From Virgifigura deserti (GTDB lineage: Bacteria > Pseudomonadota > Alphaproteobacteria > Dongiales > Dongiaceae): a DNA stretch of 64,000 bases. The stretch lies in contig QOZR01000012.1 of the NCBI GenBank assembly GCA_003576685.1, positions 62,001 through 126,000 on the forward strand, given 5' to 3'. The notes under the pieces were generated by a model that saw only the letters and a program-made list of their open reading frames with translations, searched no databases and was not told the DNA's origin. Below, piece after piece: positions 4,946 through 27,640 of this stretch (position 1 is the first letter of the stretch; every line of letters begins with the position of its first letter). The translations under genes were made by a program, and so were the position numbers.

Positions 4946-6433
<1,488 letters not shown>

Positions 6434-11627: not shown

Positions 11628-11630
11628 GTC

Positions 11631-12707: not shown

Positions 12708-14304
12708 GCGCCGGGACTCGCGCGCCGGTCATGAGCAGGCCGATCTCGGTTTCGGCTCCCTTTCGGTTATCGACGATCCCGCGCAACTCTCCGCGGTCCA
12801 TCACGGCGATCCGGTGACAGGTTTCCATCAACTCGTCCAACTCCGTCGAGATGACAATGACGACCGCATTGTCGGCACCGGCCCCGCGTCGAATACGATC
12901 TCGCGCCAGCTTCGTGCTCTGGATGTCGAGCCCATATGTCGGCTTGTTGAAGATGACGAGCTTCGCATCCGGCGACAGCTCCCGCGCAAGCAGGACCTTT
13001 TGGATGTTGCCGCCGGAAAGCTTGGCGATCGGCGTGTGCTCGGACGGCGTGCGCACGTCATAAGCCTCGATCTGCGTGCGTGCATGTCCGTGGATCACGC
13101 CCCACCGGGTGATGCCGTTTCGCCAGAATGGCGGCTTTCCCGTCTCCTTGAGAACCAGATTGACCGAGACTGAATGGGTTCCTGCCGTGCCCTCGTCGAG
13201 ACGTTCGTCCGTGATGTAGCGAACGCCGTGCGCCCGCCGGGCTGGCACCCCCATCCTGGTCACGTCTTTCTGGTTCAGCATGACCGTGCCGCCGGACACC
13301 GGCCGCTGTCCCGACAGCACCTCGGCCAGATGCTTCTGGCCGTTGCCGTCGACGCCCGCAACGCCGAAGATTTCACCGGGCCAGACATCGAAGCTGACAT
13401 GATTCAGGGCGCATTCGCCGAACTGGCCGGTAGTCGAAACATCATGCAGGGCAAGGGCGGGCGAACCGGACCGGTCGACCGGCTTCAAGCCGTCATGATC
13501 AAGAGCCGTACCGACCAGGGCCGCTTCGGCGCCTTTCGACAGATCGTTGCGGCCGAACATCATGGTGATGACCTCGTCGATCACCTGCTTCTCCGTCATC
13601 TTCCCCAGGCGCTCCTTCGGCAGCTCGCCGACGACATGTCCCAGCCGGAGCACCGAGATGTGATCGGCCAGTTCATAGGCCTCGCGCAGCTTATGCGTGA
13701 TGAAGATGACCGCGACCCCGTGATCCCGCAGCCGGCGCACCACCGCCGACAGTTCCTTGACCCCATCGGGCGTCAGCATCGAGGTCGGCTCATCCAGGAT
13801 CAGGGCCCGCTCGCCATGCCACAGGGCACGCATGATCTCGACCTGCTGCTGCTCACCAAGCGAGAGGCGACCGACCAGGGCATCGGGGTCCAGTTGCACG
13901 GACAGAAGCTTGCTCAACTCCCTGAAGCGGGGAAGAACGCTTTCCGGGTCGCAGCGGCGCCACCAGGGGGAGCCGAGCATGAGATTTTCCAGAATGGTCA
14001 GGCTGGGGATCAAAAGCACATGCTGATAGACCGTGCCGATTCCCAGCTTGAGCGCATCGCGAGGCGACGACAGCCGAACGGTCGCCCCGCCGACGGCAAT
14101 CGTTCCCTCGTCGGGTTGCTGCATGCCGGCAATGATGCTTATGAGGGTGGATTTTCCGGCGCCGTTCTCCCCCAGCAAGGCATGGATTTCGCCGTGACGG
14201 AAGGTCAATGAAACGCGATCGTTAGCAAGGACGCCGGGAAACCGCTTGGTAACGTCCGACAAGGAAATCGCAATGCCGTTCGGACCTGCGGTAGACGCAT
14301 CCAT
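12700..14304 (-). CDS. BMP-type ABC importer ATPase with two nucleotide-binding domains
   Basis: A 534-residue tandem ABC ATPase of the simple-sugar/nucleoside type. The first domain is canonical: Walker A GENGAGKST at 45-53, a signature-like LSLGEQQQ, and Walker B with catalytic glutamate LILDEPT. The second domain has the family's degenerate Walker A (GVDGNGQKHL) and an intact LSGGN signature, but Walker B reads VIFNKPTYGLD, lacking both the usual aspartate and glutamate. Only the first site is therefore likely to hydrolyse ATP efficiently. Some degeneracy is normal in this family; the N-K pair looks further decayed than usual. It sits 150 nt downstream of the binding-protein gene, with hairpins between them. 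Confidence 0.9.
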   Translation of the reverse strand: MDASTAGPNGIAISLSDVTKRFPGVLANDRVSLTFRHGEIHALLGENGAGKSTLISIIAGMQQPDEGTIAVGGATVRLSSPRDALKLGIGTVYQHVLLIPSLTILENLMLGSPWWRRCDPESVLPRFRELSKLLSVQLDPDALVGRLSLGEQQQVEIMRALWHGERALILDEPTSMLTPDGVKELSAVVRRLRDHGVAVIFITHKLREAYELADHISVLRLGHVVGELPKERLGKMTEKQVIDEVITMMFGRNDLSKGAEAALVGTALDHDGLKPVDRSGSPALALHDVSTTGQFGECALNHVSFDVWPGEIFGVAGVDGNGQKHLAEVLSGQRPVSGGTVMLNQKDVTRMGVPARRAHGVRYITDERLDEGTAGTHSVSVNLVLKETGKPPFWRNGITRWGVIHGHARTQIEAYDVRTPSEHTPIAKLSGGNIQKVLLARELSPDAKLVIFNKPTYGLDIQSTKLARDRIRRGAGADNAVVIVISTELDELMETCHRIAVMDRGELRGIVDNRKGAETEIGLLMTGARVPAHA

Positions 14305-14348
14305 CCGCGCACTCCGTTGTCTGGGGTAATCGATAATCTAGGGCAGCA

Positions 14349-14443
14349 ACGGGCCTACAGGCCCGACGTGGCGGCGACTCCATCATGGAGAGATGGCCGC
14401 CACGCCGGGGGCGCCGGGCGGCCGCGAAAACAGACGCGGCCGC
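14349..14443 (-). repeat. Tandem hairpins between binding-protein and ATPase genes
   Basis: Three inverted repeats fill this 150-nt intercistronic gap. The first is GGGCC-TACA-GGCCC starting near 14351. The second is CGTGGCGGC (14367-14375) with GCCGCCACG (14396-14404), enclosing a smaller TCCAT-C-ATGGA. The third is GCGGCCGCG (14418-14426) with CGCGGCCGC (14435-14443) around an 8-nt loop. All arms are perfect. In ABC import operons such structures after the binding-protein gene often stabilise its mRNA or reduce read-through to the membrane subunits, and that is the likely role here. Confidence 0.65.
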
Positions 14444-14454
14444 GTTGACTTCTT

Positions 14455-15498
14455 CTACTCCTGCGACTCCACCGATGTCATCAGGCTGCGAACCTCCTGG
14501 GCATCGCTAATGCGGTCGACCTTCGTCTTCCCGGAGACAATGTCATCGCGGATCGCCATCACGCTGTCCCAGACTTCCGCCGGAATATGATCGGTCTTGA
14601 GAATACGGACCGAATCGTCGGCCAGCTGGATCTTGTAGCCGACGGTCCCGAACTTGTCCGCCTTCAGATCCTCGACCATCGCACTGTAGACCGGGACAAG
14701 GTCCCAGACCACGGACGACAGAAGATGCCCCTGATCGAGTTCCGACTTGTCACCGATGACATCGATGAACCACGCCTTGCCGCCATCGACGGCCTTCGTC
14801 GTTTCCACGGCCTGGATCATGCCGAAGCTCGAACCGTTGCCCTGGCCGAAGATGATATCCGCGCCGGCCGCGATCACCGACTCGGTGACGCGGCGACCGC
14901 CGGCGGCATCGCCGTAGGCAGCCGGGCCGATGACCGCGTAAATGATCTTCACGTCAGGATCCTGGGCCCGAACGCCGAGCGCGAAGCCGGCCGACTGGCT
15001 GTTCCAGGACGGCGGCTCACCCGAAACGACGATGCCGACCGTGCCGGTGCGCGTCATCCGCGCCGCCATGATGCCCGCAAGGTACGAGCCTTCATGGCCG
15101 GACAGCGTGTAATCGGCGACGAGGCCGGGCTTCATATCGTCCGGAAGGTCCACGATCGCGACGGGAACGCCCGTCTCGGCCGCAATCTCCGGTGCCGCTG
15201 TATTGTAGCCGCTGGCATGGGCAATCATCAGGTCCGCCCCGTCCTCGGCAATCTCGCGCAGTGCCGGCCGCACATCGCCATAGCCGAGGCCTTCGGCCGG
15301 GATCAGCTCCAGCCCATACTTCTCGGCGACCTCCCGCGCGGCATCGACGCCCTGCTGGTTCCAACCATAGTCCGTCCCCTGCTCGGGCGTAAGGATGGCA
15401 ATGGTTTCGACCTCGGCCGCACCTGCCGACCATGCCACGCATGTCCCAAGCACCAGGCCAGAGACCAATGTTCCAAACTTAGTCCTCGAACGAGTCAC
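14455..15498 (-). CDS. BMP-family substrate-binding protein of the ABC importer
   Basis: A 347-residue periplasmic binding protein (Bmp/PnrA-like). A basic N-terminus and hydrophobic core end in SAGAAE, a good signal peptidase I site, followed by the BMP-family opening TIAILTPEQGTDYGWNQQG. Further family stretches are LGYGDVRPALREIAEDGADLMIAHASGY and ADIIFGQGNGSSFGM. I chose the GTG start at 15498: it has GAGGAGG five bases upstream and gives a normal signal peptide, whereas the open frame extending to 15717 would add an implausible leader. It captures the ligand for the two permeases and ATPase downstream. The ligand is probably a B6 vitamer, judged only by context. Confidence 0.9.
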   Translation of the reverse strand: MTRSRTKFGTLVSGLVLGTCVAWSAGAAEVETIAILTPEQGTDYGWNQQGVDAAREVAEKYGLELIPAEGLGYGDVRPALREIAEDGADLMIAHASGYNTAAPEIAAETGVPVAIVDLPDDMKPGLVADYTLSGHEGSYLAGIMAARMTRTGTVGIVVSGEPPSWNSQSAGFALGVRAQDPDVKIIYAVIGPAAYGDAAGGRRVTESVIAAGADIIFGQGNGSSFGMIQAVETTKAVDGGKAWFIDVIGDKSELDQGHLLSSVVWDLVPVYSAMVEDLKADKFGTVGYKIQLADDSVRILKTDHIPAEVWDSVMAIRDDIVSGKTKVDRISDAQEVRSLMTSVESQE

Positions 15499-16196
15499 CC
15501 TTGCCTCCTCAATTTCTTCGCTGCCGAAGGACGGAACCTGCAGCACCGCTAGAACCATGTCCCATCGGCGCAATATTGGTTCCCAAAACTTAACGACCCC
15601 TTTTACTGGGCTACGCGGCGATCCTTCGCACAAGAGCAGAGAACACGCCTCCCCACTGCACCGTGCATATTGTCCCCTAGACGTAACGCTCACAACATTA
15701 AGATGACACCAATTCAAGATGTTTTGTCAACGCTCCGCAGGAGTGAGAACCACTTCCTCCGAAGAGCGAACCATTAAGGCGAACGATGAACCACCACATG
15801 GCAAATCATCCACCAGGCCATCTCCCGATGGCCCGCGCCTCTCACGCTCCCTCCGGCAACAGCCCCCGCAATCGACTGATTCCCATAGGAGGCTTTGTAC
15901 TTACGACGCCTCATGTCGCGTAACGACTCATCTCTCTTCTGTTGAGAAAAGGGAACAAATCATCTATTTTTCGGATCTGTATAGGAACCATAACCTCTTG
16001 ATCGGGTTTCATGAGATACCTTTCCGGCAAGAGCTGCGCCAAGCGTGTCAACCAGACCAAGGTAGCAGATGGGTGCACGGCCGTCACGGCTCCGACCAAT
16101 GACGGCCAACGGGCCGCAGCGCCGGGACGACAGTATGGCTGGAGTGGATTGGCTTGCTAAGTATGTGACGGATTTTCTAGGTACGGTGTAGGAAAA
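15499..16196. promoter_or_regulatory. Divergent regulatory region between importer operon and GntR gene
   Basis: No gene is supported in these 698 bases; the short frames present lack ribosome sites and family features. It is visibly less GC-rich than its surroundings and lies between the divergent binding-protein (minus) and GntR-type regulator (plus) genes. Candidate elements are a perfect TTGACA on the minus strand (15725-15730) without a clear matching -10, a TGCAC-C-GTGCA inverted repeat (15657-15667), and TTGT-N4-ACGA (15895-15906), which loosely resembles GntR/FadR-type half-sites. Which of these the regulator binds cannot be decided from one copy. Confidence 0.45.
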
Positions 16197-16964
16197 ATGG
16201 ACCGCTATCAGAGTACTTTGGAGAAGCTTCGGCATATGCTTGAGGGCTGGTCCCGCGACAATGGGGGACGATTGCCGGCCGAGCGCGAGCTTGCGGATCA
16301 ACTCGGCGTCGGTCGCCGCGTCCTGAGGCGTGCGCTCGGCGCCCTTGAAGCGGACGGGCTGATCTCTCGCCGCCAGGGAAGCGGCACCTTTGTCGCGAAT
16401 CGCCGGGAACCTCCGATCGCGAGTCGGTCCGAAACGGCCGACGAGGTGGCGCCGCGCAGCACGGTCATCGCGCATCCGAACGTCAATTGGCTGACGCAGC
16501 GCGGGACGCCGATGGAGTTGGTCGAGCTGCGCCTCAACATCGAGCCGATCATGGCGCGTCTCGCGGCCTTGCGCTCTTCCCAGATAGATGTGGAAAGCTT
16601 GCGGGCGCTCGCGCGAGAAAGCCGCGATGCCAGGAACCATGAAGACTACCAGGCCGCCGATTTGGCGTTTCACAGAAAAATCGCCGAACTGTCGCGAAAT
16701 TCGCTGCTTCTGATTCTATTCGACTCGCTGTGCGGCGCATTGCGGGACGAGGCGATGAGGCGCTTCGGCGAGAACGGTCACTGCTTCAAGCGCCAGGCGG
16801 ACCATGTCCGGTTTCACGAGTCGATCGCCGAGGCGGTAGCCCAGCGGGATCCCGAACTGGCGGAACGACTGATGCAGGACCACCTTGCCGACGTGCATCA
16901 AAGCCTGTTCGTGACGGCAATGCCCGCCGGATATCGCCAGTGGCGCGAAGCGCAGGCCGGGTAA
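16197..16964 (+). CDS. GntR-family (FadR/FCD subfamily) transcriptional regulator
   Basis: A 255-residue DNA-binding regulator. Residues 10-70 form a winged helix-turn-helix with the GntR features GGRLPAERELADQLGVGRRVLRRAL and ISRRQGSGTFV. The C-terminal half is an alpha-helical FCD domain with histidine-bearing segments (DLAFHRKIA, RFHESIAEA and a DHLADVH near the end), which in this subfamily bind a metal and a carboxylated ligand. It is the only plus-strand gene inside the B6 island, divergent from the importer operon and convergent with the 4-pyridoxate dehydrogenase gene. It is the obvious candidate regulator of the island, with a pyridine carboxylate intermediate as plausible inducer. 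A GTAGGA motif precedes the ATG closely. Confidence 0.9.
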   Translation: MDRYQSTLEKLRHMLEGWSRDNGGRLPAERELADQLGVGRRVLRRALGALEADGLISRRQGSGTFVANRREPPIASRSETADEVAPRSTVIAHPNVNWLTQRGTPMELVELRLNIEPIMARLAALRSSQIDVESLRALARESRDARNHEDYQAADLAFHRKIAELSRNSLLLILFDSLCGALRDEAMRRFGENGHCFKRQADHVRFHESIAEAVAQRDPELAERLMQDHLADVHQSLFVTAMPAGYRQWREAQAG

Positions 16965-17031: not shown

Positions 17032-18693
17032 TCAGGCGGCGGCGACGGCTCCGCGAAACCGTGCGTCGGGCGCCAGGGTCGGCCGCCCAAGGATAAGGTC
17101 GGATGCCCGCTCGGCGATCATCACGATCGGCGCGTTGATGTTGCCGCTGGTCAGGTCCGGCATCACCGCGGCGTCAACCACACGAAGCCCCGAGGTTCCC
17201 CGGACCCGAAGCTGCGGATCGACCACCGCCAGCGGATCCGCTTCCAGGCCCATCCGACATGTTCCGAGAGGGTGGTGAACGGTAATCGACGTCGACCGGA
17301 TGTAAGCGTCGACCTCCGCCGCGGAACTTGCGTTCGATCCGGGAGCGATTTCCTTGGCGATATAGGGCCGCATCGAGGGCCGGGCAGCGACATCGCGGGC
17401 GATCTCCACGCCCCGCCTCACGACCTGCCAGTCGGAGTCCGTGGACAGGAAGTTCTGACGGATGATCGCGGGCGACAGCGGATTGCCATTGGCCAGCTCC
17501 ACCACACCCCGGCTTTCGGGCCGCAGCATGACGATGCGGCAGGCGAAGCCATCCTTGAACGGCTCCTTGAACGGCTTGAAATAGGGCCAGGCATTGAGCG
17601 GCGCAGCCGTCAGAAGCAGTTGGAGATCGGGCCGCTCCAGCCCATCGCGGCTCTTCAGGAATGCCGTGATTCCGCCGGGAACATCCGCGGCGCCGCCCTT
17701 GCCGAACAGATGCGCCTTGATCATCTCCTGCCCGATCCGGTCGAACCGCATCATGCGATGGAACGGGCCGGGCTCCTTCCGTTCGTACATCAGGATCACC
17801 GAGACATGGTCCTGCAGGTTCTTGCCGACCCCCGGGACCTCGGCCCGCACCGGGATGCCGTGCCGTGCCAGTTCCGCCGGGTCGCCCACGCCGGATAGCA
17901 TGAGAAGCTGCGGCGAATTGATCACGCCGCCGGACAGAATGACCTCACGATCCGCACGGACGCGGAACTTCTTTCCGTCTTGCAGATACTCGATTCCGAC
18001 CGCCCGCTCACCCTCGAACAGGATGCGCGTCACATGGGCCTTGACGCGAATCTCCAGATTATCGCGCGCCAGCGCGGGCCGAAGATAGGCGGTGGCCCCG
18101 CTGCTGCGGCGGCCGTTGCGAATGGTCATCTGCAGGCGGCCGAAGCCCTCCTGCCGCTCTCCGTTATAGTCGTCCGTCCAGCCATGGCCCGCATCCATAC
18201 CAGCCTGGGCGAAAGCGTCTACCAGCGAGTCCTGGTACCGGCAGAACTGTGTGCCGAGCGGGCCGGCGCCGCCCCGAAAGGCATCCGCCCCTTCCGCCCA
18301 GGTTTCCTGCTTGCGGAAGTAAGGAAGCGCGTGGGCATAGGACCATTCATCGAGGCCCTTGGCCGCCCACCCGTCGAAGTCGCCGCGGTTGCCCCGTACA
18401 TAGGCCATCGCATTGACCGATGACGAGCCGCCGACGATCTTGCCGCGCGCGCATTCGACACGGCGTCCGCCGACATTGTCTTCCGGTTCGCAGAAATACA
18501 TCCAGTCGTGCAACCGCTTCTGGAGGATCTTGCCCCAGCCCAGTGGAATATGGATCAACGGATCGCGGTCCCAGCCGCCGGCCTCTAGCACGAGAACCTT
18601 GGCGTTCGGATCTTCCGAGAGCCTGTTGGCCAACGTACAGCCGGCAGACCCCGCGCCGACCACGATGTAGTCGTAACTGCTGTGCCTCGTCAT
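17032..18693 (-). CDS. GMC-family flavoprotein, probable 4-pyridoxate dehydrogenase
   Basis: A 553-residue GMC oxidoreductase with the FAD motif GAGSAG at 13-18, the signature [19 protein letters not shown] near residue 85, and the C-terminal active-site segment [13 protein letters not shown]. It differs clearly from the other GMC enzyme in the window (probable pyridoxine oxidase), so two different alcohol substrates are expected. In M. loti the oxidation of 4-pyridoxate to 5-formyl-3-hydroxy-2-methylpyridine-4-carboxylate is done by a GMC-family dehydrogenase. With PLDH upstream on the same strand and the FHMPC dehydrogenase further up, this is the best assignment. Family membership is certain; the substrate is inferred from context. 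It could otherwise be a choline-dehydrogenase-like enzyme. Confidence 0.82.
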
Positions 18694-18804: not shown

Positions 18805-19545
18805 TCAAACGCGGACCATTCCGGCGTTCGCGTTCAGCGCCTGGCCGGTGATCCAATGTGCTTCCTCGGATGCCAGGAAGGCGATGGCCGGCACGATATC
18901 CGAGGGCGTGCCGCGACCCTTGATCGCCTGCAGCATGTTGACGATCTCGAAGCTGTCCTTGTGCCCAGTCTCCTGAACGCCTTCGGTGTCGGTCAGGCCG
19001 GGGCAGACGCAATTGACGGTGATCCGGTCGGCACCGAGTTCCGTCGCCAGCGCGCGGGAGAAGGTCAGCACGCCGCCCTTCGAGGCGACGTAATGCGCCA
19101 TGTTCGGCGTGCCGGCGAAGATGGAGTCGGAAGCAATGTTCACGATCCTGCCGTACCCACCCTTGCGCATCGCGTCCGACGAGGCGCGGCACATTAGGTA
19201 GAGACCGTCCAGATTGACCCGCATGACCCGACGCCACTCCTCGAAGGTCAGTTCCGACCAGGGAACGAACGGTACGATGCCGGCCCCGTTGATCAGGACG
19301 TCGATCTTGCCGCAGCGCTTCAGGACCGTTTCGTGAAGCGCCGCAACGGACTCCGGATCGCCGATGTCGCATTGAACGGCGAAGGCCGAGCCACCTGCGG
19401 CTGTGGCCTTCGCCTTCGCACCTTCCCCGTTGACGTCGACGAAAGCCACGGTCCCGCCTTCGTCCGACAGCCGCTTCGCAGCTGCGGCGCCAATCCCCTG
19501 GGCGGCTCCCGTGACGATGGCCACACGGCCGGTAAATCTATTCAT
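18805..19545 (-). CDS. Pyridoxal 4-dehydrogenase (short-chain dehydrogenase family)
   Basis: A 246-residue SDR enzyme that oxidises pyridoxal, as its hemiacetal, with NAD to 4-pyridoxolactone. The cofactor motif TGAAQGIG is at 12-19, NGAG near 86-89, and the catalytic Y152-x3-K156 in HYVASKGG follows a serine near 139-141. Resemblance to the M. loti pyridoxal 4-dehydrogenase, as I remember it, includes GAGIVPFVPW, FAGTPNMA.YVA.KGGV, RALATELG and the ending WITGQ.LN..AGMVR. The ATG at 19545 has AAGGAGA in place; an upstream in-frame ATG at 19584 does not. The product feeds the lactonase encoded elsewhere in the island. It follows dctP by 22 nt, so it is probably cotranscribed with the TRAP genes. 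Confidence 0.9.
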   Translation of the reverse strand: MNRFTGRVAIVTGAAQGIGAAAAKRLSDEGGTVAFVDVNGEGAKAKATAAGGSAFAVQCDIGDPESVAALHETVLKRCGKIDVLINGAGIVPFVPWSELTFEEWRRVMRVNLDGLYLMCRASSDAMRKGGYGRIVNIASDSIFAGTPNMAHYVASKGGVLTFSRALATELGADRITVNCVCPGLTDTEGVQETGHKDSFEIVNMLQAIKGRGTPSDIVPAIAFLASEEAHWITGQALNANAGMVRV

Positions 19546-19567: not shown

Positions 19568-20596
19568 TTATCGCTTCCCCTCAACGACCGTGGTGAGCAA
19601 CTCGTACTCTTCGGCGATTTCAGCGTCCTCAGTGAGGATCTGCTCCCCGATCTCCCGGAAGACCGACATCATCCGCTCCCGGTCCTCATCGCTCAGCTTC
19701 AGGATCTCCCCGCCATTCTCGACCCACTTCGCATTCGACCGCTCCACATTGTCGATGCCCCATTGAAGGACGGCCTCCTCCGCCGCGCGGCCGGATTCGA
19801 TGATCGCCTTGCGGACATCCTCCGGCTGGGACTGGAACCAGGTTTCATTCACGACATTCACCGAGACGATCTGCGAGAACGACAGGTCCGTCACATATTT
19901 CGCGACGTCGTAGTAGCGGAAAGCCGTCAGGATCGGCATCCCGGCGAGCATGCCGTCGATGTTGCCGGATTGCAGCGCCGGCACCACCTCGGTCAGCGGC
20001 AGGGGAAGCGGGTTCGCGCCGATCGCCTTCAGGGGCTCCATCTGCAGGGGCGACGCGAAGGTGCGGATTTTCATGCCGGCCAGATCATCCAGCTTTGGCG
20101 CCGGTTCCTTGGTCAGCACGAGAAACGGGCTGTTGAAGATGACGCCGATAACGCGAAGGTCGCTATCCAGCGCCAAGGTCTCCAGGTGGTCGCGATAGTC
20201 GGGGTCGTGAATCACCCGGCCCACATGTTCCGGCGAGTCGAAGAGTCCCGGCGCGTCCAGAACCTGGAACGCCGGATCAGTCCCGACCAGGAACGAGGTC
20301 GGCGAGATGAAGGATTCGATCGTGCCGAACAGAACCCCCTCCACCATGCGCGGAATGGCACCCAGCTGACTGGCCGGATAAATCTCCACCGTCACCTTGT
20401 CGCCGGCGCGACTTTCCAGCTCTCGGGCGAAGGTCTTCTGCCATTCGTGCTGAACGTCATTGATTGTCGCGCTGGCCAGCTTCATGACGGTCTGAGCCTC
20501 GGCCCGGTCCGCCGGATAGCCCAGCAGCATCGTCAGCGACAGCGCGGTACAAATCGCGGCGCCTTTCCAACAGCGGAAGCGAGAAGACATGGACAT
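19568..20596 (-). CDS. dctP: TRAP transporter substrate-binding protein, DctP family
   Basis: A 342-residue periplasmic solute-binding protein. Residues 1-34 are a signal peptide with hydrophobic core ALSLTMLLGY ending ADRAEA. The mature part shows DctP-family features: the opening KLASATIND.QHEW, a central AGMKIRTF whose arginine normally pairs with the ligand carboxylate, and the stretch EVVPALQSGNIDGM. It delivers an organic acid to the DctQM membrane complex encoded directly upstream. Because it sits between PLDH and FHMPC dehydrogenase genes, I infer that the ligand is a pyridine carboxylate such as 4-pyridoxate. AAGGAAAGG precedes the ATG. Confidence 0.9.
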   Translation of the reverse strand: MSMSSRFRCWKGAAICTALSLTMLLGYPADRAEAQTVMKLASATINDVQHEWQKTFARELESRAGDKVTVEIYPASQLGAIPRMVEGVLFGTIESFISPTSFLVGTDPAFQVLDAPGLFDSPEHVGRVIHDPDYRDHLETLALDSDLRVIGVIFNSPFLVLTKEPAPKLDDLAGMKIRTFASPLQMEPLKAIGANPLPLPLTEVVPALQSGNIDGMLAGMPILTAFRYYDVAKYVTDLSFSQIVSVNVVNETWFQSQPEDVRKAIIESGRAAEEAVLQWGIDNVERSNAKWVENGGEILKLSDEDRERMMSVFREIGEQILTEDAEIAEEYELLTTVVEGKR

Positions 20597-20608
20597 CGTC
20601 CTTTCCTT

Positions 20609-21919
20609 CTAAAGGGTCTCGACAAGGTAGAGGGAGAGCTCCGGGACATAGGTAATGACCAACAGGGCAATCACCTGGGCGACGAAGAATCCGAACAGGC
20701 CCCGATAGATGTCGGAGATTTTCGCATTCAGGACCGACTGCGCGACGAATATGTTCAGGCCGAACGGAGGCGTGAACATGCCGATGCTCAGATTGACCGT
20801 CATGATGACCCCGAAATGAACGAGGTCGATCCCCAGTGCTTGCACGATGGGTGCGAGAATCGGCGTCAGCACCAGAATCGCCGAGGTCGGGTCGATGAGG
20901 CATCCGAGAATGAGAAGGAGCAGGTTGATCGCGAGCAGGAACATCACGGGCGTCAATTGCGCCGCCTCTACCCAGGCTATCAGTGACTGCGGGATGCCCT
21001 GGACGGTCAGGATCCAGGCGAAGACGGCGGCGCTCGCCACGATGATGAGGATCTGTCCCGTCAGGAAGGCGGATTCCGACGCCGCCTCCAGAATTTGGCG
21101 CCAAGTCACGCTGCGATAGACATAGCGGCCGAGCAGCATGGCATAGAGGCAGGCCACGCCGCCGGCCTCGGTGGGCGAAAAGAAGCCCAGATAGATGCCC
21201 AGCAGAACGATCGCCGGCATGGCCAGGGCGCCCGATGCGCGGGCGGTCGCGGTGGCGAAGCCGACATCCGCGCGGCGATCACCTGCGCCTGGCTCCGTCG
21301 CAATGACGCCATTCTGGGCGCTTCCCTGCGTGCTTCCCTGGCGCCTGACCCAGAGTAGAACATAGAGGCCCATCAGGAGCGCGATCAGAAGACCCGGCAG
21401 GATGCCCGCGATGAACAGCTTTGGAATCGATTGTTCGGCGCTCGCGCCGTAAAGGATCATCGCGATGCTGGGCGGAACGACGATGGCTATCGATCCGCTG
21501 GAGGTGATGATGCCGAGCGAAAACGGCCGTCCATACCCGTTTCGCAGAAGCGGCTCGTAAAGCGTCTTGCCGATAGCCGCGACGGTAGCCGGGCTGGAGC
21601 CGGACACCGCACCCAGCATCGTCGAACTGGCGATGGTGGTGAGGCCGAGACTGCCCCGGACATGCCCGATGAGGCTCATCACCCACTGGACGAGGCGTTC
21701 GGATACGCCGCATCGATTCATCAGCTCGCCAGCGAAAATGAAAAACGGAACCGCCAGGAGCGCGTAGTTCGCGACTCCGCCATACACGATCTGATGAATG
21801 ACCAGGGGCGGCACGTTCATGATCGTCAGGAGGGTCGTCGCGCTGGCTGCCAGCAGGACCACATAGACCGGGAACCCCAGCAGGAACAGACCGACGGGCA
21901 GGACCATCAAGGACCACAT
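20609..21919 (-). CDS. dctM: TRAP transporter large permease, DctM family
   Basis: A 436-residue membrane protein with about twelve hydrophobic segments, the transport subunit of a TRAP system driven by an ion gradient. The family stretches GVPFFIFAGELMNRCG-like (here AVPFFIFAGELMNRCG), the SGSSPATVAAIG loop and the C-terminal TPPFGLNIFVAQSV are all visible. A longer hydrophilic loop rich in Gly, Thr and Ala around residues 185-220 is unusual in size. The gene starts 1 nt after dctQ and dctP follows after 12 nt, so the three genes form a classical dctQ-dctM-dctP unit. The sequence alone does not tell the substrate. Confidence 0.92.
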   Translation of the reverse strand: MWSLMVLPVGLFLLGFPVYVVLLAASATTLLTIMNVPPLVIHQIVYGGVANYALLAVPFFIFAGELMNRCGVSERLVQWVMSLIGHVRGSLGLTTIASSTMLGAVSGSSPATVAAIGKTLYEPLLRNGYGRPFSLGIITSSGSIAIVVPPSIAMILYGASAEQSIPKLFIAGILPGLLIALLMGLYVLLWVRRQGSTQGSAQNGVIATEPGAGDRRADVGFATATARASGALAMPAIVLLGIYLGFFSPTEAGGVACLYAMLLGRYVYRSVTWRQILEAASESAFLTGQILIIVASAAVFAWILTVQGIPQSLIAWVEAAQLTPVMFLLAINLLLLILGCLIDPTSAILVLTPILAPIVQALGIDLVHFGVIMTVNLSIGMFTPPFGLNIFVAQSVLNAKISDIYRGLFGFFVAQVIALLVITYVPELSLYLVETL

Positions 21920-21920
21920 G

Positions 21921-22433
21921 TCAGTTCGCCCCTTCGCCCGGTTCCGACCGCGGGGTGATTCCTGCGGCGGCCAGCAGCGCCGCGACCGCGAGAACGGCTG
22001 ATATCAGGGCGATCAGCGCGAAACCCATGAAAACCGCGGCATGGGGCACCGTCATCGGCACTCCCATGTCCATGCTCTTCTGCCCGATCCGCCCCAGCTT
22101 CGAAAGCGCTTCCCAAGATTGCAGGCAGACGAACCCGGCCAGGACCGCAGCGAATGTGCACCTGATGGCGTCGAGCAGAAACTCCAGGCGCCGGGGCAGC
22201 ACTATCGCAAGCAGGTCGAAGCGCAGGTGCCGGCCGCCGGCCGTCGCCAGGGCGGCACCGAGGAACACCAGCCACACCATGGAGAAGACGAGCAGCTCGT
22301 CGGAACCCGGAATGGTTTGCCCGAAGACGTAGCGGCCGAACGCATTGGCGACGTTCAGCACCACCATCATGATCAGCAGAAGACCGATGATAGATCCCAG
22401 GGCCGTCCGGGTCATTCCCCAAGCTCGCTGCAT
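21921..22433 (-). CDS. dctQ: TRAP transporter small permease, DctQ family
   Basis: A 170-residue membrane protein with four hydrophobic segments (about residues 12-32, 48-66, 88-108 and 128-155), matching the size and topology of DctQ subunits. The motif FSMVWLVFLGAALATAGGRHLRFD fits the family's conserved second segment. It would pair with the DctM subunit encoded 1 nt downstream. The upstream FHMPC dehydrogenase gene ends 50 nt before it, so the TRAP genes appear embedded in the catabolic transcription unit. Confidence 0.88.
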   Translation of the reverse strand: MQRAWGMTRTALGSIIGLLLIMMVVLNVANAFGRYVFGQTIPGSDELLVFSMVWLVFLGAALATAGGRHLRFDLLAIVLPRRLEFLLDAIRCTFAAVLAGFVCLQSWEALSKLGRIGQKSMDMGVPMTVPHAAVFMGFALIALISAVLAVAALLAAAGITPRSEPGEGAN

Positions 22434-22483: not shown

Positions 22484-23407
22484 TCAGGGCTCCCGCTCGA
22501 GCGCGCGGCGCACGGCCACGAAGCGTCGCGCTCTCTCGGCGCGGAGTCGCTCGATTTCCTCCGGTGTGTATTGGAAGATCCCTGCACCGCTCTTGACGCC
22601 CAGCTTGCCCTCGGCCGTTCGGTCCGTGACATAACCGGCGACATCGTCGCGCGTGCACAAATCGGCGTTCAGGTAGCTGCCGACGGACTGGTAGATGTCC
22701 AGCCCGGCCATGTCCAGAAGCGCCATGGGGCCGATGATGGCCAGTTTGTAGCCGATGCCCCACGATACGCAGGTGTCCAACCCCTCCGGCTCGATGACGC
22801 CGCGCTCGACGAGATCCACCGCCTCCCGCATGATCGCGTAAAGGATGCGGTTCTCGACGAAGCCGGGGACATCCTGCTTCACCACCACCGGGCGCAGGCT
22901 AAGGCCCTCGATGAACTTGACCAGCCAATCCCTGGTTTCCGCACTGGTATGCGCGCCGGCGATCACCTCGATCATCGGGATCAGATGCGGTGGGTTGGAC
23001 CAGTGCATGCCGATCACCCGCTCGGGCGCCGAAACGGCCTGCTGAAGCTTGGTAATCGGGATCCCCGAGGTATCGGATGCGAGAACGCAATCGGACGATA
23101 CCAGCCGGTCGAGCTGCCGGAACAGCTCCAGCTTGAGATCAAGCCTTTCCGGGACGTTCTCGATGACCATGTCGGCGCCCGCGACTGTCTCCTCGACAGT
23201 GTCGGCAAAGGCGACGGCCGTTCCGTCGCCCTTGTTCGGCATGTCGAGCTCGTCGAGGATGCGGGTGATGATCGGGAGGCTGTCGCGTGCCTTCTCAATC
23301 GCTTCCGGCTTGATGTCGTGGGCCCGCACGGTCATGCCGGCCCGTGCGATCGTGGCGGCCATGCCGGCCCCCATTGTTCCCAGTCCGATGATCGCCACGG
23401 TTGTCAT
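22484..23407 (-). CDS. 5-Formyl-3-hydroxy-2-methylpyridine-4-carboxylate 5-dehydrogenase
   Basis: A 307-residue member of the 3-hydroxyacyl-CoA dehydrogenase family: Rossmann motif GLGTMGAG at 8-15, catalytic histidine H135 in GMHWSNPPHLIPMIEVI, and the C-terminal stretch VERGVIEPEGLDTCVSWGIGYKLAIIGPMALLDMAGLDIY. These match the M. loti FHMPC dehydrogenase as I remember it far better than a true hydroxyacyl-CoA dehydrogenase. It oxidises the 5-formyl group to give 3-hydroxy-2-methylpyridine-4,5-dicarboxylate. I chose the ATG at 23407, which begins the Rossmann strand; the open frame extending to 23518 adds unrelated residues. Automatic annotation would probably miscall it as 3-hydroxybutyryl-CoA dehydrogenase. 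Confidence 0.9.
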   Translation of the reverse strand: MTTVAIIGLGTMGAGMAATIARAGMTVRAHDIKPEAIEKARDSLPIITRILDELDMPNKGDGTAVAFADTVEETVAGADMVIENVPERLDLKLELFRQLDRLVSSDCVLASDTSGIPITKLQQAVSAPERVIGMHWSNPPHLIPMIEVIAGAHTSAETRDWLVKFIEGLSLRPVVVKQDVPGFVENRILYAIMREAVDLVERGVIEPEGLDTCVSWGIGYKLAIIGPMALLDMAGLDIYQSVGSYLNADLCTRDDVAGYVTDRTAEGKLGVKSGAGIFQYTPEEIERLRAERARRFVAVRRALEREP

Positions 23408-23524: not shown

Positions 23525-24112
23525 CTAGGCTGCCACCACTTTCCCGAAGGCCGGCCGCTCGGAAAGGCGCTTGTGCCAGCCCTTGAGAGCGGGCAGCTCG
23601 GGAAGTGCGACCGGGAAGTTGATGCAACGGTGGACGATGGGCGCCAGGCAGATGTCAGCGATCGTGAAAGCATCGCCGGCGAGGTAGGCATTCTTGGCAA
23701 GATGCCCGTCCATGATCTTCAAGCAGTCGACCATGGTCTTCGCAGCCCCCTCCGGCACGGTGTCGCCGCCCTTGGCCGCCTTGAAGATCGTGACATAGCT
23801 GTCATTAAGGCTGGCGAGGAGCCAGTCCATCCAGCGCTCGACCTGGGTTCGGGCGGCCAAATCCGTGGGATAAAGCGCGGAGCCGGTCTTCGCCGCCACG
23901 TAGCGCAGGATCGTATTGGATTCCCAGATCACAAGATCACCGTCGATGAACGTCGGGACCTTGCCGTTTGGGTTCAGCGACAGGTACGCCGCATCGCCGG
24001 TGTTACCGAACTGACGGCCGTAATCTTCCCGAATGTAATCCACCCCCAATTCCTCCAGGAGGAACAAAACCTTCTGCACGTTTCCCGAGGTCTTTCGGCC
24101 GAGGACTTTCAT
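23525..24112 (-). CDS. Glutathione S-transferase family protein
   Basis: A 195-residue cytosolic GST-fold protein. The N-terminal thioredoxin-like domain begins KVLGRKTSGNVQKVLFLLEELG, contains the cis-proline segment NGKVPTF and the glutathione-contacting WESNTILRY, and is followed by an all-helical C-terminal domain with FTIADICLAPIV. The start at 24112 has GGAGAA five bases upstream; an in-frame extension to 24373 crosses the RidA gene and is rejected. Isomerases of maleylpyruvate or maleylacetoacetate type have this fold and accompany gentisate-type ring cleavage, so a cis-trans isomerase acting on a ring-cleavage product is plausible. A detoxifying transferase cannot be excluded. Confidence 0.85.
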   Translation of the reverse strand: MKVLGRKTSGNVQKVLFLLEELGVDYIREDYGRQFGNTGDAAYLSLNPNGKVPTFIDGDLVIWESNTILRYVAAKTGSALYPTDLAARTQVERWMDWLLASLNDSYVTIFKAAKGGDTVPEGAAKTMVDCLKIMDGHLAKNAYLAGDAFTIADICLAPIVHRCINFPVALPELPALKGWHKRLSERPAFGKVVAA

Positions 24113-24173
24113 GTAGCTTCTCCATTTCGCTGCCCGGAGCCGGAGGCTTCCAGGGCCTTGCTTCGTTAGATTC

Positions 24174-24578
24174 TTAGGAATTGACCGGCTTGTAGGCGAT
24201 GGCGTCCATCTCGATCTTGGTGTCGATCGCGGCGCGCGCTTCCACGGTCGTACGTGAAATGTTTCCGTTGGGGAAGTATTCCGCGAAAACCCGGTTGTAC
24301 CGCCCGAAATTGCGGGCATCCTCGAGATAGACGGTGATCTTGACGACGTCGGACAAGTCCGCGCCGGCGGCATTCAGGACGCGCCGGATGGACTCGATCG
24401 TCCAGCGGGTCTGCTCCTCGATCGTGCCGCCGCACATGTTTCCGTTCTCGTCCTTGGCCACCTGCCCCGAGACGAAGATGAAATCGCCCGCCCTTACGCC
24501 CGGATGGAACGGGAGGTTCGGATTCTTCTTGCCGATGGGGGTGATGTTCGGGTTTGCGCCCGTCGCCGACTCGGCCAT
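24174..24578 (-). CDS. RidA/YjgF-family protein
   Basis: A 134-residue Rid-superfamily protein with family stretches FHPGVRAGDFIFVSGQVA, a central helix EEQTRWTIESIRRVL, VVKITVYLEDARNFGRYN and the ending RTTVEARAAIDTKIEMDAIAY. RidA proteins form trimers that hydrolyse enamines and imines to ketones plus ammonia. The arginine in VEAR may be the catalytic one, but its spacing to the last strand seems one residue shorter than the classical ARLP arrangement, so it may belong to another Rid subgroup. AGAGAGG precedes the ATG. In this context imine or enamine hydrolysis after pyridine ring cleavage is a sensible role. Confidence 0.88.
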   Translation of the reverse strand: MAESATGANPNITPIGKKNPNLPFHPGVRAGDFIFVSGQVAKDENGNMCGGTIEEQTRWTIESIRRVLNAAGADLSDVVKITVYLEDARNFGRYNRVFAEYFPNGNISRTTVEARAAIDTKIEMDAIAYKPVNS

Positions 24579-24596
24579 TGCTGCCTCTCTTCTTGC

Positions 24597-25724
24597 TTAC
24601 AGAACCGTTGTCTCGATGATATCGACGCCGCGCTGGCGATCGATCAGATAGACGAGCCCACGCCCGTCAAGCGTCACGTCGTTCGAGGAGGAGCGCTCGA
24701 AGCCCTGCGGCGCATCCGGCTCGAAATAGCCGACCTCCTTCGGGGCGAACGGATCGGCCACATCGATGAGACGAAGCCCCTGCGCGAACCAGGCGAAAGG
24801 AACGACCGTACCGCCGGCAAACCGCTCGGACGGCTGATGACAGCCGGTCATCGGCTGCTGCGGGCTGCCGTCCCGATCGACTCCCTCCACTTGGAAGGTC
24901 GAAATGGGCGTCGGGTTGAACTCGTCGGTAATGTCATAGATCCAAGTGAAAGCCGGCGCGGACGGGTAGAGCTTCGCCACGTCCTCGTCGGCGACGAGCA
25001 TGACGTCGCGGCCCTTCAGCGTCATCGGCATCTTGAGGCAGGTGTGGGTCGGATGCGGGAAGGAGGTGCTCGTATTCCGTGCGGATATCAGCGTCGGTTT
25101 GCTCATGTCGCTGATGTCCAGGATGAAGAAGCCATGATGCCAGTAGCTCACATACAGGCGATTGCCGACCCGCAAGGGATGGTGACAGCGCGGCGGCACC
25201 CAGTTGGCCCACGGATAATCCTCACCGCCGGCTTCCCACTGGCCCGGAATCCACCAGCGCCCCACCTCCTCGGGCTTGGTCGGATCCTTCAGGTCGAGGA
25301 TCATGGCGATATTGCCGACATATCCTTTGGCGGTCGGCGAGATATAGGCGTAGCGGCCGTCGAAGTCGTACCGATGAACGCCCTTGCCTTCCGTCATCCA
25401 CTTGCCGATCTGCCTGGGCTCGGCCGGATTCTGAACATCGTAGATGGCAATCCCGCCACCGAACTCCGGATTGTCCTGACCGAACCGTTCATGGTTCACG
25501 ACCATCAGCCCGTCGGCGACCCGGACCTTGTGCGAGTGCCATCCTTCAGGCACGTCGATACGGTGAAGGAGCTTCGGGTTCCTGGGATCGGCGATATCGT
25601 AGATCGACGTGCCGCTGGGATTGCGCATATGGCCGACATACAGCGTGTCGCCGTCGACCCACACCTGACCGCCCCCCGGGCAGTCGATATGGCCGATCAG
25701 TTTCGCGTTCTTTGCTTTGCTCAT
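24597..25724 (-). CDS. LVIVD-repeat beta-propeller protein, histidine-rich, function unknown
   Basis: A 375-residue protein built from repeated blades of the LVIVD type, seen as recurring units such as GTSIYDIADPRNPKLL, GIAIYDVQNPAEPRQIG, FFILDISDMSKPTLIS, TWIYDITDEFNPTPIS and GLRLIDVADPFAPKEVG. Between blades lie conserved-looking histidines (GWHSHKV, RCHHPL, HPTHTC, GCHQPS) that could point into the central channel and bind a metal, as in selenium-binding-protein-like propellers. No signal peptide is visible, so it is probably cytoplasmic and perhaps enzymatic rather than a surface protein. It lies between the bicupin dioxygenase and RidA genes, 18 nt from the latter, implying a role in the same pathway. 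Confidence 0.75.
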   Translation of the reverse strand: MSKAKNAKLIGHIDCPGGGQVWVDGDTLYVGHMRNPSGTSIYDIADPRNPKLLHRIDVPEGWHSHKVRVADGLMVVNHERFGQDNPEFGGGIAIYDVQNPAEPRQIGKWMTEGKGVHRYDFDGRYAYISPTAKGYVGNIAMILDLKDPTKPEEVGRWWIPGQWEAGGEDYPWANWVPPRCHHPLRVGNRLYVSYWHHGFFILDISDMSKPTLISARNTSTSFPHPTHTCLKMPMTLKGRDVMLVADEDVAKLYPSAPAFTWIYDITDEFNPTPISTFQVEGVDRDGSPQQPMTGCHQPSERFAGGTVVPFAWFAQGLRLIDVADPFAPKEVGYFEPDAPQGFERSSSNDVTLDGRGLVYLIDRQRGVDIIETTVL

Positions 25725-25826
25725 GGATTTCCCGTTGCCTGGTGCGGCGATTGGCGGCCGCCCCGAAAATTACGCTATTCCGGAAGACGGCATGGCCGGA
25801 ACCGGCGTCCGACAGCCGCCTGCCCC

Positions 25827-26960
25827 TTAGTCGAGGCGGATCGTGTCGCCGTCCCGGGTCTGTCCCCACCGCTTGAACAGGCCGAGCTTCGTCAGAGCCG
25901 GCTCGTCGCTGGCGACGAACAGGATCACCGACTCGCTCGTGTCGTTGACATGCTGGCACCAGCTTCCGCCGGGCACGGCGAGAGTGTCGAACAGCCCCCA
26001 CTCGTGGCGCTGCCCATCGACGAGGGAATAGCCCTTCGGCCCCTCGAAGGGCGTGACCAGAAGGCTCGCGGTCTGCTTCAGCGGCAACGTCTTCTCGCCG
26101 GCACGCAGCATCTGCGCGAAGAACGTCATCGTCTTGAAGATCGGCTGGCCGTTGGTCGGATCGATGTATTCGATCTTGAGACCATCGTACGGATCGCCGT
26201 CCCAATCCTTGTGCTCCTCAAGGAACTCGCGCATCGGCTCCCACCGATAGACATACATGGGAGAGGCGGCGCCGGTGCCCCGGTCATGCGAGACGAATCT
26301 CGGCATATAGCCGCCGCGGCCATAGACGCGCTGCGAGTAGTCGGACGTGAAGCGCGCCGACTGCTCCTTCTTCTTTACCAGAGCGTCGCCTTCCTTCTCC
26401 TTATAGTCATGCTCGAAGTAGATAGCGTTCAACACCTCGACGAGCGGAAGGTCGAGGACCGAAAGGTTAACGGCGGGCTCACCGCCCTTATTTCCGTGGT
26501 TGTGCCAGGTGTCGTGCGGCGTCAGGACCATATCCCCCGGACCGAAGACGATGTCCTCGCCCTCCACGCCCGTGAAGTTCTGGTGTCCGGTCAGGCCGAA
26601 CCGGATCGCGTTCGGCGAGTGGCGGTGCGGCGGCATCACCTCGTTCGGATCGTTGAGGCGGTACGAGCTGTACATCGTGGATACGGTCGCGCGCGTCGGC
26701 GCCAAACCGGGATTGATGAGGATCAGCGACCGTCGCTCGGAATCCGCAGTGCTGATAAGGTCGGCCGACCGTTTCAGCAGAGGGCCGATGAGCGCGTCAT
26801 AGCTCCAGACGAAGGGGATGGCCCGTCGCGACTGCATGAGCTGCCGGATTTCGTCGTTGGGCACGTCCGTCGTCGTTGCCCAGAACGGGAACATGTTGCC
26901 GCTGTGTACATCGGCGTAAAGCTGTTCCAAGGCCGCTTTGAGATTGCTTCTGTCTGCCAT
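25827..26960 (-). CDS. Gentisate 1,2-dioxygenase-like bicupin, candidate pyridine ring-cleavage enzyme
   Basis: A 377-residue bicupin of the gentisate/salicylate/1-hydroxy-2-naphthoate dioxygenase family. The N-terminal cupin carries the iron ligands H112 and H114 in PPHRHSPNAIRF and H153 (with H155) in TPHDTWHNHGN, followed by NLSVLDLPLVEVLNAIYFEHD. The C-terminal cupin (about residues 260-365) looks non-catalytic, as is usual. I start at the ATG at 26960, which has AGAGGA ahead of it; an ATG at 26975 has no ribosome site. It is the first gene of the same-strand series leading to FHMPC dehydrogenase. Family relatives cleave between a hydroxyl-bearing and an adjacent carboxyl-bearing carbon, the arrangement present at C3 and C4 of the FHMPC dehydrogenase product. 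The substrate is inferred. Confidence 0.85.
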   Translation of the reverse strand: MADRSNLKAALEQLYADVHSGNMFPFWATTTDVPNDEIRQLMQSRRAIPFVWSYDALIGPLLKRSADLISTADSERRSLILINPGLAPTRATVSTMYSSYRLNDPNEVMPPHRHSPNAIRFGLTGHQNFTGVEGEDIVFGPGDMVLTPHDTWHNHGNKGGEPAVNLSVLDLPLVEVLNAIYFEHDYKEKEGDALVKKKEQSARFTSDYSQRVYGRGGYMPRFVSHDRGTGAASPMYVYRWEPMREFLEEHKDWDGDPYDGLKIEYIDPTNGQPIFKTMTFFAQMLRAGEKTLPLKQTASLLVTPFEGPKGYSLVDGQRHEWGLFDTLAVPGGSWCQHVNDTSESVILFVASDEPALTKLGLFKRWGQTRDGDTIRLD

Positions 26961-27640
26961 GCGATCCTCTGCCATAGTCTGCGCCGCCGCAACCTTACGG
27001 GGTGACGGTCCACGCCAAATCGGGACCACTCGGATTCTATTGGTGCGCACCCCTCTGCGCGGCGCGGCGCATAGTAAACGTCGGCCGCGACCAAAGTCAA
27101 AAGGATTGAAGGCGACCGAACCATGCGCGCTAAAATTGGTGCGTCATACTACGAAACCAGCTTGAAATCTCGATCTCTTGGACGATGAAAGGTGACGTGC
27201 GCGCCGGCGGCATCGCGCGAGATCGCACCTTTCCCGGTACCACTCAGCCGCAACCGCAACCACTGACGCGCCATCACGGGCTTGGCGGACAAGACCTGCG
27301 GCGGGCGATCCGCTCCGTGAAAGAGCATCGGGCCGACTGGTCGGCGGCCGATCCCTTGTCGCAGGTGCGGCACCGGCGAAGCGACATTCTGCGGCTGATG
27401 CTCGAAATATCGTAGTGTGCGCGGCTCTGGCTTGATTTGGTTGCGGAGCCCCGCAAGCACCGTTACCAGGCAACCTCGGACGGCCGTGAGGGCACATGAT
27501 CAACGACGCTCGAATGCGCCTGATTCCGGTCAGACGTTATGCCTTCTTTAGTTCGCGCGCGTTATACGCTGGACGCGTTGCATGCACGACCCTCTCGGAA
27601 CTCCCATCCGGAAGAACTGCCTTTAGCCGCGACGAAAAAT
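26961..27640. other. 680-bp stretch without a supported gene
   Basis: Apart from the candidate promoter and repeats at 27039-27143, I see no convincing gene here. Several frames of 60-120 codons overlap on both strands between 27144 and 27640, but none has a good ribosome site, recognisable motif or plausible composition. It separates the B6 island from the polysaccharide region and may hold decayed sequence or an unrecognised small RNA. Confidence 0.5.
27071..27100 (-). promoter_or_regulatory. Candidate sigma-70 promoter of the bicupin gene set
   Basis: On the minus strand TTGACT (27095-27100) and TACTAT (27071-27076) are separated by 18 bp and lie about 110 bases upstream of the bicupin ATG. 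Match to consensus is 5/6 and 4/6. Nearby are a perfect palindrome GGTGCGCACC (27042-27051), downstream of the predicted start, and two copies of ATTGGTGCG (27039-27047 and 27135-27143) on either side of the promoter, possible regulator sites. Confidence 0.45.

Follow-up and report, generated by a model that had tools for sequence, protein, structure and literature searches.

A bicupin gene set in place of the classical lower-pathway genes points to a probable third branch of vitamin B6 catabolism in Virgifigura deserti and related bacteria

The breakdown of cofactors has been little explored, and vitamin B6, for which two routes are named, is presented in a passage of PMC3538738 as its best-understood case. 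In pathway I, known from Mesorhizobium loti and Pseudomonas MA-1, a transaminase, a pyridoxal dehydrogenase, a lactonase and the 4-pyridoxate and FHMPC dehydrogenases are joined by a decarboxylase of 3-hydroxy-2-methylpyridine-4,5-dicarboxylate (HMPDC), MHPC oxygenase and acetamidomethylene-succinate (AAMS) hydrolase, the last three being referred to here as the classical trio. The stretch analyzed in this work, 64,000 nucleotides of the alphaproteobacterium Virgifigura deserti (contig QOZR01000012.1, positions 62,001 to 126,000; "the window"), shares the upper enzymes of pathway I and, like the classical clusters, has a B6 ABC transporter, but in the slot of the trio it carries genes for a bicupin, an LVIVD-repeat propeller, a RidA-family protein and a glutathione S-transferase (GST)-like protein, together called the bicupin set. 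An original prediction, made from the sequence of this stretch, proposed that the bicupin opens the pyridine ring of HMPDC, and knew of no described B6 pathway with such an enzyme set; none was found in the open-licence PMC literature. The genomic analysis presented below supports that interpretation, and we consider it probable that these genes form an undescribed third lower branch of B6 catabolism, in which the bicupin would cleave HMPDC between C3 and C4.

The predicted run of genes is real: the bicupin set and the FHMPC dehydrogenase gene follow each other contiguously on the minus strand, with intergenic gaps of 102, 18, 61 and 117 bp. The bicupin, a predicted Fe(II) ring-cleaving dioxygenase, is encoded at 25827..26975 (382 aa from the ATG at 26975, in a longer open reading frame that extends to 27050). 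It is followed by the LVIVD-repeat protein, predicted to be a seven-bladed propeller (24597..25724), the RidA-family protein (24174..24578; PF01042), the GST-like protein (23525..24112; PF02798/PF00043), whose start is an ATG one codon inside the stretch read, and FHMPC dehydrogenase (22484..23407), which narrowly clears the NF042925 equivalog cut-off (510.3 vs 500 bits) and whose best solved chain is 4om8 (410 bits).

In order to search for the classical trio, the proteins of a classical cluster, locus L194, were used as references: MHPC oxygenase (3alj, 844 bits), AAMS hydrolase (3kxp, 509 bits) and HMPDC decarboxylase (Mlr6791, 2z7b, 460 bits). Their absence from the window was confirmed. 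Their presence elsewhere in the genome, named in the original prediction as a result that would speak against it, was looked for in whole-genome searches with the L194 queries and was not found: MHPC oxygenase gave zero matches at E 1e-3, and the best matches to HMPDC decarboxylase (32% identity, 54.5 bits; 460 for the true protein) and AAMS hydrolase (30%, 59 bits; 509 for the true protein) are below orthologue grade. The FAD_binding_3 Pfam model does detect the true MHPC oxygenase of L194, and its only full-length match in the V. deserti genome, a UbiH-like hydroxylase, was rejected, as were the six Aldolase_II proteins of the genome as candidates for HMPDC decarboxylase, none of which exceeds 32% identity. 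In the other 16 genomes analyzed from the same order (Dongiales), the best matches are 30%/102 bits for the oxygenase (G014), 32%/79 bits for the decarboxylase (G010) and 32%/70 bits for the hydrolase (G015), values so low that none of the 17 genomes can be said to hold an orthologue-grade member of the trio. Moreover, no MHPC oxygenase (E 1e-10, half of the query covered) was detected in the window or in 81 loci taken from overlapping sets (13 from the order, three from the class and 65 found with bicupin peptides, described below), where, for the rest of the trio, the hydrolase query found a single protein (27% identity) and the decarboxylase query two (26-28%).

The association of the bicupin with FHMPC dehydrogenase, proposed as a check on the prediction, came out as expected in the order and in the Hyphomicrobiales clusters discussed below. 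Both proteins find a match in the same 14 of the 17 genomes of the order and both are absent from the same three; ten of these FHMPC dehydrogenases score above the 500-bit cut-off and four at 491-498 bits. Beside the B6 genes of each of the 13 other FHMPC-dehydrogenase genomes of the order, the five genes again form an uninterrupted block with the same gene order (the contig of one, L030, is 5 kb long, truncates the bicupin and leaves one transporter gene visible), and because this gene order is kept, the block is not due to chance. In two of the three negative genomes (G004 and G006), the 20 kb around the transaminase gene hold the transaminase and the B6 transporter and no degradation gene; an amidase gene lies beside them (L154, L155), and these genes possibly serve B6 salvage rather than catabolism. 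In a sample of 385 genomes of the class, FHMPC dehydrogenase reaches at least 480 bits in six genomes, of which three belong to the family of V. deserti, and all six have the bicupin beside it; the next match falls to 245 bits. In the large genome searches, this one and the Hyphomicrobiales scan below included, at most five candidates per genome were scored. On plasmids, no orthologue of FHMPC dehydrogenase was found (at most 41% identity); a search with the bicupin matched 183 records, and the 40 of them that were listed included proteins of the gentisate dioxygenase type, 31-38% identical to the query, and one homologue at 39.5%.

The two gene sets were observed to replace each other in another order, the Hyphomicrobiales, where a scan of 397 genomes with the FHMPC dehydrogenase model yielded ten clusters above the cut-off. 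In five of them (the classical clusters L194, L195, L196, L198 and L200), the hydrolase, oxygenase and decarboxylase genes lie upstream of those for a GMC oxidoreductase and FHMPC dehydrogenase, whereas in four (L197, L199, L202 and L203) the bicupin, LVIVD, RidA and GST genes lie between the GMC and FHMPC dehydrogenase genes; the tenth (L201) reaches a contig end with only the GST in view. In none of the ten clusters, over the 12-20 kb read for each, do the trio and the bicupin set occur together. G400 (Acuticoccus) comes eleventh, with 467 bits, and belongs with the bicupin clusters. As a side observation, the MHPC oxygenase and decarboxylase genes of all five classical clusters have between them a gene for a protein resembling phosphatidylethanolamine-binding proteins (PF01161; 152 aa, L194:6979-7437).

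For the analysis of the bicupin itself, 84,980 species genomes were scanned with two bicupin peptides, which gave 65 relatives, a set neither complete nor unbiased (13 of the loci are in genomes already present in the order and class sets; L093 and L112 share one assembly, L090 and L107 another). Identity to the window bicupin is 58% or more in 55 of them, called here the clade, and 45-55% in the other ten, called paralogues. The only NCBIfam models that the window bicupin matches are those for gentisate and 5-aminosalicylate dioxygenases, both below cut-off (206.6 of 442.1 bits for TIGR02272, which thus does not place it among the gentisate 1,2-dioxygenases, and 199 of 650 bits). Solved gentisate/salicylate dioxygenases also match it, and the predicted fold (pLDDT 83) finds its best matches in 3bu7, 2phd and 2d40, with 25-29% identity in structural alignment. 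The iron ligands, which had been described as intact, are indeed kept: His117, His119 and His158, together with Arg81, Arg125 and His160, are found in the clade wherever the column is present (53 or 54 of 54 sequences), their salicylate dioxygenase equivalents being His119, His121, His160, Arg83, Arg127 and His162. In contrast, all 54 sequences, from the window and from 53 of the 55 clade loci, have Arg106, Asn170 and Ser172 where salicylate dioxygenase has Gln108, Trp172 and Asp174. A passage of PMC11264262 gives these three residues as strictly conserved among known gentisate dioxygenases, and not one of the 54 sequences has them, a pattern that argues against plain gentisate activity. For gentisate binding, Gln108 is described in part of PMC10306065 as hydrogen-bonding the substrate carboxylate, and Asp174, with Trp104, as hydrogen-bonding the 5-OH. 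HMPDC has a bare C6-H where gentisate bears the 5-OH, and its extra carboxylate adjoins the chelating one, and so the residue pattern would fit HMPDC.

HMPDC should be made by this cluster, since FHMPC dehydrogenase, pyridoxal dehydrogenase, lactonase, transaminase and four transporter subunits all pass NCBI curated cut-offs. The upper enzymes of pathway I down to HMPDC are present, four of them above such cut-offs and 4-pyridoxate dehydrogenase by 66% identity only. The minus-strand run of genes continues past FHMPC dehydrogenase, with gaps of 1 to 117 bp, through a TRAP transporter (19568..22433; DctQ 21921-22433, DctM 20609-21919 and DctP 19568-20596, above the cut-offs of the Pfam DctQ, DctM and DctP models, with 1-50 bp gaps to neighbours), an SDR-type pyridoxal 4-dehydrogenase (18805..19545; NF047923, 393.8 bits, cut-off 325; best solved chain 3ndr) and a GMC oxidoreductase (17032..18693). 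The latter is probably the 4-pyridoxic acid dehydrogenase, because it is 66% identical to the GMC protein of L194, which sits between HMPDC decarboxylase and FHMPC dehydrogenase and which we take, from Mesorhizobium work, to be 4-pyridoxate dehydrogenase. Beyond it, also on the minus strand, lie the four-subunit B6 ABC transporter (10692..15549; substrate-binding protein 14455-15549, ATPase 12700-14304, permeases 11631-12707 and 10692-11627), whose subunits match NF047927, NF047930, NF047929 and NF047928 above cut-off and which NCBI names a putative B6 transporter, 4-pyridoxolactonase (9824..10648; NF047925, 464.1 bits, cut-off 325), pyridoxamine-pyruvate transaminase (8583..9764; NF046070, 641.8 bits, cut-off 600) and a second GMC oxidoreductase (6985..8562), possibly a pyridoxine 4-oxidase, 47% identical to a GMC protein found on B6 plasmids of Rhizobium, the CP021372 homologue of which bears that annotation. 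A GntR-family regulator is encoded on the plus strand (16197..16964; every model below cut-off), and its homologues in relatives are divergent and adjoin the bicupin. Additionally, a methylmalonate-semialdehyde dehydrogenase gene was observed near the transaminase gene (4946-6433, minus strand; TIGR01722, 709.5 of 448.5 bits), with homologues also in L110 and L112; it may serve a later step of B6 breakdown.

The route that we infer from these genes would run, in its upper part, as known, from pyridoxamine or pyridoxal to 4-pyridoxolactone, 4-pyridoxate, FHMPC and HMPDC, which would then escape decarboxylation. The bicupin, holding Fe(II) by His117, His119 and His158, would chelate HMPDC through the C4 carboxylate and the C3 hydroxyl, as gentisate dioxygenases do with gentisate (carboxylate/hydroxyl chelation at the iron is described in part of PMC4019311), while Arg106 would take the extra C5 carboxylate, the neighbour of the chelating one. 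The O2-dependent C3-C4 split would give the imine HOOC-C(CH3)=N-CH=C(COOH)-CO-COOH, that is, a pyruvate imine joined to the enamine of a keto-dicarboxylate, and hydrolysis of this imine would yield pyruvate and aminomethylene-oxaloacetate. Ammonia could be removed by RidA (perhaps by a PF06684 protein in one sub-lineage), and the LVIVD protein, a putative metallo-propeller, and a GST isomerase would complete the breakdown, most simply to oxaloacetate and formate. Pyruvate, ammonia and formyl-oxaloacetate, the last giving oxaloacetate and formate, would account for all eight carbons.

The roles of the three partner proteins are proposed from conservation, family and fold. Of the 55 clade loci, 53 have an LVIVD gene close to that of the bicupin and in the same orientation, downstream within 2.5 kb in 52 and upstream in L090; the contigs of the other two end 210 and 121 bp past the bicupin match. 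In an alignment of 53 LVIVD sequences, 11 histidine positions are conserved at 97% or more (a second LVIVD alignment had 38 sequences, that of RidA 18). The structural model of the protein (pLDDT 88) is a propeller, and in Foldseek the Sphingobium TCM1 phosphotriesterase ranks first, its E-value almost nine orders of magnitude ahead of the next match; in the structural aligner this enzyme (5hrm) gave Z 31.0 with 22% identity over 339 residues, and unrelated WD40 propellers (~10% identity) tied with it in Z. According to the title of a reference in PMC11656708, the TCM1 enzyme is a seven-bladed propeller with a binuclear metal centre. We propose that the LVIVD protein may be a metal-dependent hydrolase acting just after ring opening. 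The RidA protein scores above the cut-off of Pfam PF01042 (96.6 of 27.3 bits) and below that of the TIGR00004 subfamily (83.9 of 106.25 bits), and is a candidate imine/enamine hydrolase. Its Arg109, invariant in 18 of 18 aligned sequences, is presumably, to judge by the motif, the catalytic Arg105 of active Rid proteins. That residue is linked to imine hydrolysis in active Rid proteins in a passage of PMC7311433. The GST, possibly an isomerase, scores 56-58 bits with its best NCBIfam models, that for maleylacetoacetate isomerase among them, all far below cut-off.

Across the 55 clade loci, FHMPC dehydrogenase is present in 42, often in the same gene run as the bicupin, RidA in 33, the GST in 35, and at least one gene of the B6 upper pathway or transport in 30. 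Sub-lineages differ in RidA, GST and FHMPC dehydrogenase, which suggests that the bicupin and the LVIVD protein are the core and that later steps vary. In seven loci (L049, L051, L053, L055, L056, L106 and L108), neither RidA nor the GST is in view, and genes for hydantoinase A/B follow downstream of the rest of the bicupin set. Four others (L054, L057, L093 and L110), with no RidA or GST, have after FHMPC dehydrogenase a gene for a PF06684 protein (all four) and one for a HalD-like protein (scanned in L054); the PF06684 protein possibly replaces RidA there, since the two presumably share a fold. None of the ten paralogue loci (L095-L097, L099-L104 and L107) has an LVIVD, RidA, GST, FHMPC dehydrogenase or B6 gene in view; in L095, a molybdopterin-hydroxylase gene (MoCoBD, Ald_Xan_dh_C) is found nearby. 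The paralogues are maybe dioxygenases for other hydroxypyridine carboxylates.

It is important to mention the points that weigh against HMPDC cleavage by the bicupin. The conservation of His117, His119 and His158 in the 65 loci is partly built in, because these residues lie inside the search peptides; the three changed positions lie outside both peptides, and 12 relatives in alignment A1, found without the peptides, also keep the iron histidines. The Arg/Asn/Ser pattern failed as a B6-specific marker: all ten paralogues have it, and because they have no B6 linkage, Arg106/Asn170/Ser172 alone does not specify HMPDC. Twelve of the 55 clade loci have no FHMPC dehydrogenase or B6 gene in view; for two of them (L078 and L082) the lactonase is found elsewhere in the genome, and a third, L112, is a contig-end fragment whose genome has FHMPC dehydrogenase and a B6 gene at L093. 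RidA is not in view in 22 of the 55 loci and the GST in 20, which speaks against a fixed role for either; some of these misses are contig-end cuts, and two whole sub-lineages are among them. Finally, 4-pyridoxolactonase, in view in 20 of the 55 clade loci, was sought in the genomes of 39 of the 65 loci (30 of the clade, none with the lactonase in view, and nine paralogues; L107 was omitted, its assembly being that of L090, and clade loci L058, L065, L081 and L089 were left out). It was detected elsewhere in 16 of the 30 clade genomes (15 above cut-off, one as two split pieces) vs none of the nine paralogue genomes, and was not found in the other 14 clade genomes, many of these being metagenome-assembled.

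Seven loci (L074, L077, L079, L083, L084, L094 and L105) have neither a lactonase in the genome nor FHMPC dehydrogenase in view. The last six carry the bicupin, LVIVD, RidA and GST genes, some with a GMC protein, and an earlier intermediate might therefore be the substrate in that group; this substrate and the role of the LVIVD protein are the weakest points of our proposal. The group lends itself to an alternative that we regard as unlikely, namely that the bicupin opens the B6 ring at 4-pyridoxate or FHMPC, with FHMPC dehydrogenase on a side branch or acting after cleavage: 4-pyridoxate already allows chelation by the 3-OH and 4-COOH, and L075 has lactonase, pyridoxal dehydrogenase and bicupin but no FHMPC dehydrogenase in view. 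However, FHMPC dehydrogenase is present in the 42 clade loci mentioned above, Arg106 in place of Gln108 suits a second carboxylate, and the bicupin set substitutes for genes that act after HMPDC.

It is considerably less probable still that the bicupin block is a separate salicylate- or gentisate-like aromatic operon that merely lies beside B6 genes, despite a fold and nearest characterized relatives that are those of gentisate/salicylate dioxygenases, and despite the 11 loci (L112 left out) with the bicupin and no FHMPC dehydrogenase or B6 genes in view. Against this stand the exact co-presence with FHMPC dehydrogenase in the order, the occupation of the slot of the classical trio, the loss of the residues given in PMC11264262 as strictly conserved in known gentisate dioxygenases, and the fact that no other ring-cleavage gene was found for the B6 cluster; a gentisate operon adjacent by accident was rejected on the co-occurrence and the residues. 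About as improbable, finally, is prior decarboxylation of HMPDC by an unrelated enzyme and ring opening by the LVIVD protein or another enzyme, which could appeal to the LVIVD protein as the most constant partner, with its 11 conserved histidines, and to the six Aldolase_II genes. However, none of those Aldolase_II proteins exceeds 32% identity to HMPDC decarboxylase, and once the C4 carboxylate is lost, a gentisate-type cupin no longer finds an ortho hydroxy-carboxylate, so that the conserved bicupin would have no role.

The relation of the two lower modules was analyzed in trees built from chosen subsets of 42 (FHMPC dehydrogenase) and 43 (bicupin) rows. In the former, which includes two distant outgroup rows, the five classical sequences nest among the bicupin-associated ones, inside a set of 17 rows (97/92) and one of 13 (100/99), both well supported; L201 is labelled there as bicupin type, its bicupin lying past the contig end. 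The bicupin cluster L197 falls among the classical rows, at weak forks (89/98 and 83/58), and a single origin of the classical kind remains compatible with this tree. In the bicupin tree, the four Hyphomicrobiales bicupins, that of L197 included, form one group (100/99). These groupings suggest that lower modules have been swapped beneath an upper pathway that both kinds share; of the two, the bicupin module may be the older. A broader picture can be offered tentatively, at somewhat less than even confidence: the bicupin route would be the older and more widespread B6 ring opening in Proteobacteria, the textbook route a derived replacement in a few Hyphomicrobiales, and the bicupin family, paralogues included, a new class of hydroxypyridine-carboxylate dioxygenases.

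If the proposal is true, B6 would have a further route with another ring-opening chemistry in most of the FHMPC-dehydrogenase loci examined, and the annotation of B6 catabolism would change in the dozens of related genomes in which the putative branch is seen. The bicupin would be, to our knowledge, the first of the gentisate-dioxygenase bicupins to cleave a pyridine ring, and an LVIVD-repeat protein would gain an enzymatic role.

Apart from pathway I, four described systems can be compared with the locus. With the gentisate and salicylate 1,2-dioxygenases (2d40, 3bu7 and 2phd), the window bicupin shares the bicupin fold, the three-His iron site in the N-terminal cupin and the equivalents of Arg83, Arg127 and His162, but it differs in its low identity (25-29%), in the change of Gln108, Trp172 and Asp174 to Arg, Asn and Ser, and in remaining below the cut-off of TIGR02272. 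The 5-aminosalicylate 1,2-dioxygenase (NF049978) and the 5-nitrosalicylate dioxygenase (8ch4) resemble it in the cleavage of an ortho-hydroxy carboxylate by a cupin; the window bicupin reaches only 199 bits of the 650-bit cut-off for the former, and the latter, a monocupin according to part of PMC10306065, has weak similarity to it. The Sphingobium sp. TCM1 phosphotriesterase (5hrm) and the LVIVD protein are alike in the predicted seven-bladed propeller, whereas their substrates would differ. Plasmid clusters with a NicX-type 2,5-dihydroxypyridine dioxygenase, in Rhizobium and Ochrobactrum, likewise place a dioxygenase beside B6-type transporter and transaminase genes, but nothing in the window matches their dioxygenase, monooxygenase, reductase or amidase genes. 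In three of these clusters, L134 (NZ_CP048425), L135 (CP021372) and L137 (NZ_CP022605), pyridoxamine-pyruvate transaminase and a B6-type ABC transporter accompany a gene annotated as 2,5-dihydroxypyridine 5,6-dioxygenase, together with genes for a 4-hydroxyphenylacetate 3-hydroxylase-type protein, a flavin reductase, two amidases and MmgE/PrpD, in what looks like yet another route of B6 ring cleavage.

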